Shown: positions 32,299 through 36,268 of the stretch, one piece after another
How the letters are laid out: every line of letters begins with the position of its first letter
Position numbering within the stretch: the first letter of the stretch is position 1
From: Helicobacter cholecystus
GTDB taxonomy: Bacteria; Campylobacterota; Campylobacteria; Campylobacterales; Helicobacteraceae
Length of the DNA: 64,000 bases
Direction of reading: 5' to 3'
Assembly: GCF_003364215.1 (NCBI RefSeq)
Contig: NZ_NXLU01000001.1
Coordinates: 1-64,000 of the forward strand
The notes under the pieces: model-generated
Seen by the model: only the letters and a program-made list of their open reading frames with translations
Databases searched by the model: none
Told to the model about the DNA's origin: nothing
Position numbers and translations under genes: made by a program

Positions 32299-33930
32299 CT
32301 ATAACTCCTTTTTAATTTGTTGAATTTTTTGTTGAAGTTGTGTAATTGCTTTGAGCTTTGTATCATAATCTAGCTCATTTGAGGAAATAATTTTTTGTAT
32401 TTTATTCTCATTTTCTTTGCAAACTTTAAGTAAGACTTGTTTTTTAAATTCTTCTTCATGTGCAACTCTAGCATTGGCGGAAGAAAGGAGTGCTTGAAGC
32501 CTACTATCTTCTTTCCGATTAGCCAAAAGCGCTTCATACTCACTTTTACATTCTAAAAAATGATCTTTTTCTAGATATTCAATCGCCCACTCTAACAACT
32601 CCTCTTTCTCATACATTGTAGTGATGATCATCACCTCAAGGGGATTGTTGTAAATAGAAATTTGGGATTGAACTTGCAAGACTTTGGACTTTTTAACCCT
32701 AATAAATTCTGGAGGGACTTTAAAGATAGCAGAAAATGAGGCAAAATAGGTTCTTTGAACTATTGCTGAGAGAGTTGAGAAAAACTCTCTCCCCTCCTTA
32801 AGTGCTTTCTCTTTTTGGAATACATCATTTAAATCATAAGAATAGGCAATCTGCTCTAAAGCAAATCTCACAAAGGGGATAGGTGAGGCAAAGAGGACTT
32901 TTAACTCTTCAATTCTCCCTTGAGTGACCATATCTGCAGGATCAGCTCCATTGGGAAATATTACCACTCCTCCCTCTTTGCCCTCACTTGCCAAAAGTTT
33001 TGAAGCTTTTGTAGCTGAATTTATTCCAGCCTTATCTCCATCATAACCTACAATAATCTTTGGTTCTCCGCGGTTAAGCAATGGGAGATGCTCAGGTGTA
33101 AGAGCTGTTCCAAGAGTGGCTACTGCATTCTTAATTCCTGCTTGATGGAGTGCAATGACATCAATATATCCCTCTGTGATAATGATTTCTTTTTTACTAA
33201 AAATACTCTCTTTTGCAAGATGATAAGCATAAAGCAACTTGCTTTTATTAAAAACCTTACTTTGAGGGGAATTAAGATATTTTGCTAACTTGCTATCACT
33301 TTGAATCACTCTCCCTCCAAATCCTACAACCTTACCATTTGCAGAATGGATAGGGAAAATCACCCTCTCAGAAAATCTTGCATACACCCTACTCTCATTT
33401 TCCCCCAATACCCCTAACTCTATCGCCTCTTTTCTAGCATTAAGAGAATCTGCAAAGTTGATACTTAAAAATCCTGCTCCGCAATAGCCCAATTTAAATT
33501 GAGCAATGCTCTGTGAAGTAATACCTCTTTCTTTAAAATAGGAGAGATGGGTAGGGGAGGAAGCAAGAGAGTTAGCATAAAAGGTTGCAAAGCTTTCTAA
33601 AAGAGAACTCTCCTTTTTAATATTCTCTCCCCTATCTTTAGTATAAGTGAGAGTAAAACCACTCAAGGCTGCAACTTTCTCTACACTCTCTGCAAAACTC
33701 AGCTTCTCATACTCCATCACAAAAGAAAATGCATCCCCACCCACCCCACAACCAAAACAATGATATGTCCCTCTTGAGGGGCTTACCATAAAACTAGGAG
33801 TCTTCTCTCCATGAAAAGGACAACAAGCAGAATAATTAATCCCTGAGCGTTTCAGTGGGATATAGCTTGAAATGATCGAAACAATATCAAGTGAGTTTTT
33901 TAATGATTCAATGCTTTCTTTAGTAATCAT
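32299..33930 (-). CDS. dnaG: DNA primase
   Basis: A 543-residue primase making RNA primers at the fork. The N-terminal CHC2 zinc finger (CCPFHGEKTPSF ... YHCFGCG, about residues 36-63), the TOPRIM core (EGYIDVIALHQAG and VGYDGDKAG, about 250-305) and a C-terminal helicase-binding region are in the expected order. No clear ribosome binding site precedes the ATG, and an extended -10 box lies just upstream, so a leaderless transcript is possible. It sits 9 bases after the end of the broken TonB receptor gene. Confidence 0.96.
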   Translation of the reverse strand: MITKESIESLKNSLDIVSIISSYIPLKRSGINYSACCPFHGEKTPSFMVSPSRGTYHCFGCGVGGDAFSFVMEYEKLSFAESVEKVAALSGFTLTYTKDRGENIKKESSLLESFATFYANSLASSPTHLSYFKERGITSQSIAQFKLGYCGAGFLSINFADSLNARKEAIELGVLGENESRVYARFSERVIFPIHSANGKVVGFGGRVIQSDSKLAKYLNSPQSKVFNKSKLLYAYHLAKESIFSKKEIIITEGYIDVIALHQAGIKNAVATLGTALTPEHLPLLNRGEPKIIVGYDGDKAGINSATKASKLLASEGKEGGVVIFPNGADPADMVTQGRIEELKVLFASPIPFVRFALEQIAYSYDLNDVFQKEKALKEGREFFSTLSAIVQRTYFASFSAIFKVPPEFIRVKKSKVLQVQSQISIYNNPLEVMIITTMYEKEELLEWAIEYLEKDHFLECKSEYEALLANRKEDSRLQALLSSANARVAHEEEFKKQVLLKVCKENENKIQKIISSNELDYDTKLKAITQLQQKIQQIKKEL

Positions 33931-33936
33931 AAAAGA

Positions 33937-33945
33937 ATTTTAGCA
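33937..33945 (-). promoter_or_regulatory. Extended -10 box directly before dnaG
   Basis: TGCTAAAAT on the minus strand, inside the last codons of the TonB receptor gene. Its hexamer ends 6 bases before the dnaG ATG, so initiation would fall at or next to the start codon. This would let dnaG be expressed when the thiamine-controlled transcript is off. Confidence 0.4.
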
Positions 33946-36105
33946 GGAATAAAAGGTATCTACACTAAGCCAAAACTCTCTCTTTGTATTTTTAATACTT
34001 AGTACCCCCACTTTTGCACCAACATTAAAAGGATTCCCTGCCGTATAAGCCCTACCCTCTCCATCCCATAGAACACTTGTGGCATAACGAGAATTTGTAA
34101 GATTTTGAGCAAAAAATGTGATTTCATAGTGCTTGAAAAGTTTATATATCAAGCTTATATCCCAAAGCACATAAGGTTTTTGGACTAATTCACTCTCACG
34201 ATTAAAATCATCAAGATAATACATACTTGAAAAACTCAAAAGATTACTGAATGTGAGGCGATGATTGGAATTAGAAAAAAGCAAAAAATCTAGCCCTGTA
34301 TTAAAACTTGCTCTAGGAGAAAACCTCGTACGAAGCCCTCTTACATCATAAATGCTAGGATTGCCGCCAATGATTAATACCCCTTTGTTTTTCTCATCAT
34401 CTCCAAAATATGAATACCCCACATTAGCATTTAAAAATGTAGAAAGAAAAGAATTTTCATAAGAGAGCTCTATATCCACTCCAAAAGCATAAGCTTTTCC
34501 GATATTAGCAATACTTTTATTATATCCCTCCCCTACATAAGCTTGAGTATTTTCACGAATCATGGCATAAAGAGAAGAATCAAACTTTAAACTTTGAAGT
34601 AAAAACCTAGAATGATTCCCAAACTCTAATGTATAGATTTGCTCTTGCTTATAGGGAAGTGTGTCTGTATCTGTAAAAGGGAATTTACTAAATCCTGCAG
34701 GTTTAGTGGAGTTTGCAAAGGTAAAAAAGAGCTGATGCTCAGAGTTAAAAGAGTACATCACACTTACTCTAGGATTAAGGAAATGAAAAGAAATTGAGTT
34801 TTTATAAGCAGGCATTAGCGGTGACATCGGAGGAAGAGGAACATCAATCCCTGTGTTGTAAAATTGATATCGCAATCCCAAATTAAATCCCCATTGTTTA
34901 TAGGGAATATAAACATCTGAGAAAAAAGCTATTGCGTGAGTTTGCTCAATGGCCCTCCAATTACCATTGTAATACAATGGTGGAAGTCCAGGAAAAGCAT
35001 TTCCCGTAGGAACATTATCCATTCCATTGTCAAGCAAAAGATACTTATAATACATCCCCAAAAGACTTTCAATTCCTTGAGGATAGTTTATATGAACCTT
35101 AAGCTCTTGGACAAACTCAGTCGTATCATAATAATTTCCATCCTTACTCACATCTTGAACAAAAATTCCTGGATAACTATTACCCAAGGTATCTGTTTTT
35201 TGAAAAGCACTGATAGAGCTTAGAGTACTCTCTGTGAAAAAATATTCCATTTTTACACTTGCATTATGGGCTTGGAGTGTATTAAAGGGAGACTTATTGA
35301 AAATTTTGTTTTGCACTCCATTTTGATATTCCTCATATCCACTGATTTATTCAAAACTCTCAAGAGAGAGCGAATCAAACTGTGACTTAGAGAGAAAAAA
35401 ATCTTTGTGAGTATAGACATAATGATGGTTATACTGCAATGAAAGCAAAAACTGCTCTATAGGCATATAATACACTCCCACTCCCACCAAAGCGCTCTCT
35501 CCAGAATTGAGCATTTTTCCACTTTGAGGATCTTTAATAAATCCATTATCCCTAATGTATCGCCCATTGACTTTAAACCATAATTTAGAAGGAAGAAGAT
35601 TCCACCCAATGCTTGTTTGAACATCCTCGTGTAAAAATGAAGCACTCAAAGAGAGATTTGCATAATTGCCTTTTAAAGGACTTTTTGTTGTAATTTCAAG
35701 CAAACCCAAAGATGCATTCTCTCCATAAAATAATCCTTCAGCACCCTTAATAAGCCTTACATTCTCCACATCACCTAGAGTTTGAATCATAAAGTTCGGG
35801 CTTTGAGGCACACCATCAATATACAATCCTAAAACATAAGAGTAATAATCTGCTCCGCTTACACCCCTAAGAGTAATCATAGGAAATGTATCGCTCCCTT
35901 GAGCATAGATTTTGAGATTAGGGAAAAAGGAAGAAAAAGAAGAGGTTGAGGAAATTAAACTTTTATAAATCTGCTCTTCTTTAAGGATTGAAGAACTTTG
36001 AGAAGCTTCTGCTTGAGTGCGATACTCTGGAGTTCCTATCTTGACCTCATCTAAATTTTCTCCATAAACTATAAAACAGAGTGCTAATAATAAAAATTTA
36101 CTCAT
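33940..36105 (-). pseudogene. TonB-dependent outer membrane receptor interrupted by one stop codon
   Basis: The start at 36105 (MSKFLLLALCF, signal peptide, AGGACAGG ribosome binding site) opens a TonB-dependent receptor. The plug domain (about residues 35-150) includes MITLRGVSGADYY, YIDGVPQSP and VRLIKGAEG, followed by barrel strands to the C-terminus. Codon 253, TAA at 35347-35349, interrupts the barrel; reading through it continues in the same frame (ISGYEEYQNGVQNK) for another 468 codons with normal barrel sequence, so only a single base change (for example CAA to TAA) separates this from a complete gene of about 721 codons. The leader carries a TPP riboswitch, so the ligand is probably thiamine or a precursor; that is inference. 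It may be a recent pseudogene, a readthrough gene or a sequencing error. Confidence 0.8.
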
Positions 36106-36164
36106 AACCTGTCCTTTAAAATAAAGTGACAAGCAAAGGGTTTATTGGGGTAAATGAAGTTTTA

Positions 36165-36253
36165 GTATTCCCGACGCTGGCATTACCCAGATCCGGTTCG
36201 GTCTAAGTTCACAACTTACTCTCAGCCTATTTATAGACTCCCGTCACTTGCAA
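36165..36253 (-). promoter_or_regulatory. TPP riboswitch (THI element)
   Basis: On the minus strand the conserved thiamine pyrophosphate aptamer is plain: GACGGGAG near the 5' end, GGCTGAGA of the pyrimidine pocket, then GGATCTGGGTAATGCCAGCG and TCGGGAA at the 3' end. It lies between the promoter and the TonB receptor start, with a 60-base platform before the ATG. Sequences just outside the aptamer, AAGTGAC (36249-36243) and GTCACTT (36130-36124), can pair and may form part of the switch. TPP binding should lower expression of the receptor. Confidence 0.92.
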
Positions 36254-36259
36254 GTCAAG

Positions 36260-36268
36260 ATTGTAGCA
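36260..36268 (-). promoter_or_regulatory. Extended -10 promoter of the TPP riboswitch transcript
   Basis: TGCTACAAT on the minus strand, placing the start site near 36253, right at the 5' edge of the aptamer. It lies in the short gap after the tupC stop codon. Confidence 0.55.

Follow-up and report, generated by a model that had tools for sequence, protein, structure and literature searches.

A TPP riboswitch before an interrupted TonB-dependent receptor gene in Helicobacter cholecystus, with a likely link to thiamine salvage

The window under study, a stretch of 64,000 nucleotides from Helicobacter cholecystus, contains on its reverse strand a frame (36105-33940) that encodes a TonB-dependent receptor, with a Plug domain (PF07715) in its first part and a beta-barrel domain (PF00593) in its second. 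An in-frame TAA codon (35347-35349, reverse strand) splits this frame into segments of 252 and 468 residues. The first of these (35347-36105, reverse strand) comprises the signal, the TonB box, the plug and the first five barrel strands and ends at the premature TAA, and the remaining beta-barrel portion (33940-35346, reverse strand) contains no further stop or frameshift. Of the plug and the 22-strand barrel that a TonB-dependent receptor joins in one protein, both domains are encoded at the locus, but with the TAA between them. Accordingly, of the receptor gene under a TPP aptamer proposed in the first-pass annotation, the receptor frame and its linkage to TPP stand, but the single open reading frame does not. 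The flanking genes are those for the tungstate transport components TupC and TupB upstream and a dnaG-like primase gene (named from sequence) downstream, and no thiamine transporter gene adjoins the receptor at this locus. The dnaG-like gene starts 9 nt past the receptor frame (33930-33950, reverse strand). The element TGCTAAAAT, which has the look of an extended -10 box, overlaps the final stop codon of the receptor, and no clear Shine-Dalgarno sequence was seen before the dnaG ATG; hence, dnaG may be transcribed from a separate promoter into an mRNA with almost no leader. In another Helicobacter genus (G132, locus L104, 2136-6606) a TPP-pnuT-thiN operon lies directly upstream of dnaG and a tRNA-thiolation-like gene, in the slot that the TPP-receptor gene occupies in the window.

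The leader of the receptor gene harbors the one TPP aptamer of the window (36151-36254, reverse strand). It is full length, spanning positions 1-105 of the Rfam covariance model RF00059, and scores 54.7 bits against a curated gathering cut-off of 54.3 bits (E 6e-8), which bears out the complete aptamer that had been proposed for this leader together with the Rfam search that was to check it. The same aptamer was also recovered by a whole-genome search, and the leaders of the orthologous receptors score 52-59 bits with this model. An aptamer is found directly before the orthologous receptor in three further members of the genus (G002, G003 and G005) and in five genomes of genus g12 (G016, G027, G131, G133 and G134), so that, with the window genome, the aptamer-receptor pair is present in nine Helicobacteraceae genomes from two genera. 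Because the pair recurs in nine genomes, the aptamer in the window is genuine and not a chance match. The carriers include the cultured H. pametensis ATCC 51478 (G002; 100% identity), and H. anseris and an uncultured Helicobacter are among those with intact orthologs. No receptor was found in the two other members of the genus (G001 and G004).

The architecture of the leader offers clues regarding its potential mode of action. Each of the nine leaders with an aptamer and a receptor has an extended -10 box (TGnTAnAAT type) that ends 8-9 nt short of the motif CAAGTGA; the version in the window is TGCTACAAT (36260-36268, reverse strand), 9 nt before this first switching arm. The assignment of the box as a promoter element derives solely from its conservation across the nine leaders, and matches in pattern-based promoter scans were no more numerous than in shuffled sequences. 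Given this spacing, the transcript would be expected to start almost at the aptamer. At the other end, 45 nt separate the aptamer from the ATG at 36105, which is preceded by the Shine-Dalgarno sequence AAAGGA (36112-36117). Pairing counts and folds indicate that CAAGTGA (36244-36250, reverse strand), the 5' strand of the aptamer helix P1, can alternatively pair with a linker arm, TTGCTTGTC (36128-36136, reverse strand), and that the latter can also partner a Shine-Dalgarno arm, GACAGG (36108-36113, reverse strand), in a six-pair helix. Over the nine genomes 93% of the cells are paired between the linker arm and CAAGTGA, as against 28-40% when the arm is slid by 1-3 columns, and 91% are paired between the linker and the Shine-Dalgarno arm; the linker arms having been picked by hand, these percentages are biased upward, and more weight attaches to the double changes. 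In the Shine-Dalgarno helix three pairs have changed on both sides, giving seven such cells, a count reached in 0 of 500 shuffles. Both pairings require identical linker bases and are mutually exclusive, and the folds give nearly equal ligand-free energies for the two states of the window leader (-35.2 vs -35.0 kcal/mol). The leader yielded no intrinsic terminator. It therefore contains an expression platform able to mask the Shine-Dalgarno sequence, comprising two alternative helices, of which the Shine-Dalgarno helix has compensatory changes. Since one of these competing helices covers the Shine-Dalgarno sequence, the simplest reading points to a translational OFF switch, its direction being that predicted from the helices. 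At low cellular TPP in the relatives, the P1 5' arm would pair with the linker, leaving the Shine-Dalgarno sequence exposed and the receptor translated; binding of TPP would close P1 and release the linker onto the Shine-Dalgarno arm, thereby turning translation off.

The interruption of the receptor appears to be peculiar to the window genome. The frame is uninterrupted in the eight other genomes, all of which have a sense codon at the position of the TAA (glutamine in the three relatives from the same genus). Of the invariant positions, the window copy retains 57/62 upstream of the stop and 105/114 downstream; for the intact relative G003, with its own invariant set, the figures are 62/70 and 114/124. 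As the two halves are equally conserved and there is only one disabling change, the stop is either recent or an assembly error. An AlphaFold model of the ortholog from H. pametensis (mean pLDDT 76.9, pTM 0.80) shows both plug and barrel and places the stop in the loop that follows barrel strand five, so that truncation would leave a plug and roughly one quarter of a barrel. An error of sequencing or assembly, with an intact receptor in the living strain, would account for a single disabling change in 2.17 kb, for the equal conservation of both halves and for the intact state of the aptamer, promoter box and Shine-Dalgarno sequence. However, the stop is situated in the middle of a contig of 336,604 bases (C11), outside homopolymer runs, and G001 and G004 from the same genus lack any such receptor. 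Furthermore, the PnuT-type permeases of these two are nearer to that of the window genome (64 and 67% identity) than are those of G002, G003 and G005 (44-49%). With the receptor absent from the genomes that are near in PnuT, this neighborhood seems to be losing it, and we consider an assembly error unlikely. Nor is there any indication of an alternative genetic code by which the TAA would be read through. A tree of the PnuT and ThiN genes left the order within the genus unresolved, and no clade of receptor loss is claimed. Another TonB receptor of the same genus (G004, C8:13098-13985) has an in-frame TGA, which suggests that receptor loss may be frequent in the genus; the PF00593 counts for individual genus members are lower bounds, as they miss known receptors. 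Thus, in H. cholecystus the receptor gene appears to have been disabled by a nonsense codon behind a switch that is still intact, and, the gene being interrupted, the strain probably makes no use of the receptor.

The gene content of these genomes provides a metabolic context for the receptor family. ThiC and ThiG are absent above cut-off from all six genomes of the genus and ThiE from five of the six, while each of the six encodes one PnuT-type permease. PnuT was found in no ThiC-positive genome (37 genomes). With an estimated completeness of 99.99% for the window genome (the figure given by the tool), the absence of these genes predicts auxotrophy, i.e. this Helicobacter probably cannot make vitamin B1. 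A search of the genome for pnuT had been suggested as a check, and the genome carries a PnuT-type gene whose start overlaps a second TPP aptamer at C11:251245-251341 (locus L003, reverse strand; 60.3 bits) and which is followed by a gene for thiamine pyrophosphokinase (thiN; TIGR01378, 148 bits). The designation PnuT is by context, the protein model itself calling PnuC. This pair of genes is located on the same contig as the receptor, about 215 kb away. The earlier statement that no inner membrane thiamine transporter lies next to the receptor is therefore correct for the locus, with its tupC/tupB and dnaG-like flanks, but a PnuT under its own TPP aptamer is present elsewhere in the genome. 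The Shine-Dalgarno sequence of pnuT, AAGGAA, constitutes the 3' end of its own aptamer, a layout shared by genus g7, and closure of P1 would consequently mask it directly. No TPP aptamer was found near the pnuT of G003. Receptor and PnuT co-occur in all five genomes checked (the window genome, G002, G003, G005 and G016), and the receptor clade, where checked, is restricted to genomes without ThiC. The window genome also encodes two TonB_C proteins, the energizing proteins of TonB-dependent uptake.

The proposal in the first-pass annotation of a candidate for the uptake of thiamine or a precursor is upheld for the receptor family by the absent synthesis genes, the presence of PnuT and the second TPP site, which drives pnuT-thiN. 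We infer that the likely ligand of the family is thiamine. The receptor would then represent the outer-membrane half of a TPP riboswitch-controlled system for salvage of thiamine (or thiamine phosphate): energized by TonB, it would move thiamine into the periplasm, PnuT would take over at the inner membrane, and trapping as TPP would be the task of thiamine pyrophosphokinase. Against thiamine stands the absence of the receptor from G001 and G004, which presumably manage without one. Taking these observations together, the locus is probably best explained by a thiamine salvage receptor under a TPP translational switch whose gene is broken in this strain.

The relationships of the receptor bear on whether it might instead transport a siderophore (phenolate or FyuA-like), being under TPP control for some other reason. 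Among 397 genomes of the class its close relatives are confined to the Helicobacteraceae. The closest solved structure is the ferric yersiniabactin receptor FyuA (PDB 4epa), by both sequence profile (E 3.6e-52) and fold (E 7e-37, 20% identity). The nearest group to the TPP-linked clade consists of three receptors without an aptamer, all of which adjoin AraC-type regulators, two also MFS permeases and one two ABC transporters, a setting that is siderophore-like. However, the nine TPP-linked receptors form a single clade in the protein tree with support of 100/100, these three falling in a separate clade, and the aptamer is kept in all nine genomes, those checked being ThiC-less as noted above. 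The H. pametensis ortholog also misses the cut-off of the siderophore receptor model TIGR01783 (79.2 vs 223.5 bits). Moreover, kinship to FyuA does not exclude thiamine, because in a published clustering some predicted thiamin receptors lie close to those for yersiniabactin (PMC2771747). The firm placement with another ligand group that was to count against thiamine is therefore not cleanly seen: FyuA is the nearest structure, but at low identity, and the receptors have a clade of their own. Altogether, a siderophore as the cargo appears rather improbable.

A precursor or degradation product of thiamine, such as HMP or thiazole, is a very doubtful cargo: precursor transporters are also found under TPP riboswitches (PMC3766115), and an NCS2 nucleobase permease gene that may be co-transcribed with the receptor under TPP control follows it by 9-14 nt in two relatives (L036, 9805-11148; L037, 11506-12864), but precursors could not be joined without ThiE, ThiG too is absent, and PnuT with thiamine pyrophosphokinase suits thiamine itself. 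Near the receptor of H. pametensis (L036, 11199-15593) there are several similar genes, of which one that was examined encodes a CST-I type sialyltransferase, with sialic-acid-synthesis-like genes beyond.

Returning to the thiamine salvage reading, the aptamers themselves hint at how the receptor might have come under TPP control. Compared with thiC aptamers from other genera of Helicobacter (g11 and g13), the receptor aptamers are on average 73% identical, but compared with pnuT aptamers from the same genus the figure is about 49%. In an aptamer tree from which the long rows G041, G043 and G132 were left out, the receptor and thiC aptamers are joined with support of 100/100. This resemblance to thiC aptamers, unlike those of pnuT in the same genus, suggests that the receptor aptamer is a regulator retained from a lost thiC. 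A plausible history would be one in which the riboswitch of the lost gene was retained before a receptor derived from a siderophore lineage. A fuller scenario, which we put forward only tentatively, is that thiC was lost, its TPP riboswitch was recruited to a FyuA-like iron receptor that became a receptor for vitamin B1, and the window genome represents the next step, with the receptor lost and the switch remaining. The kinship with thiC aptamers suggests a route by which a riboswitch could outlive the gene that it once served.

Receptors at the outer membrane for vitamins other than B12 form a poorly known field, and a nine-member TPP-controlled clade in predicted auxotrophs, including the cultured H. 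pametensis ATCC 51478, makes the present case directly testable. The searched literature, which covered few subscription papers, reports no TonB receptor under TPP control from this class, and thiamine goes unmentioned in a 2026 study of the TonB systems of H. pylori (PMC13367063). The TPP riboswitches described for the class precede pnuC/pnuT in H. pylori (PMC8322730) and thiC in Campylobacter jejuni (PMC3847290). These are similar in placing thiamine genes under TPP control, and the window genome shares the pnuT site; however, they name no TonB-dependent receptor as a target, and the receptor aptamer of the window is of a thiC-like subtype. In the case of FyuA, the likeness is one of structure to a siderophore receptor, from which the clade described here differs in being TPP-controlled and set apart from its AraC-neighbored sisters. 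A parallel in arrangement is SO2715 of Shewanella oneidensis, a TonB-dependent receptor with an RF00059 leader (PMC2659441), which likewise combines a TPP riboswitch with such a receptor in a proteobacterium. Its genome, however, is gammaproteobacterial with a TPP-controlled thiC, and the likeness drawn here is one of arrangement. This case also qualifies the earlier statement that TPP-controlled TonB receptors are known mainly in Bacteroidetes, which holds roughly. The system is also reminiscent of the TPP-linked TonB receptor OMthi (BT2390) of Bacteroides thetaiotaomicron, which is backed by genetics together with PnuT (PMC5613172). As in the OMthi/PnuT-Tnr3 system, receptor and PnuT each have a TPP riboswitch and lie apart in the genome, and the receptor shows the aptamer in its leader that marks an OMthi-type receptor, with control itself predicted. 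Where synthesis is lacking, low thiamine makes OMthi necessary (PMC5613172), and the OMthi mutant of B. thetaiotaomicron shows a raised thiamine requirement below about 100 nM. The Bacteroidetes genome differs in possessing a biosynthetic operon as well, and the receptor copy of the window in being interrupted, the likeness being drawn at the level of the system. Thus, the receptor system is of a kind already known from Bacteroides and Shewanella, here seen, within the searched literature, for the first time in this class.
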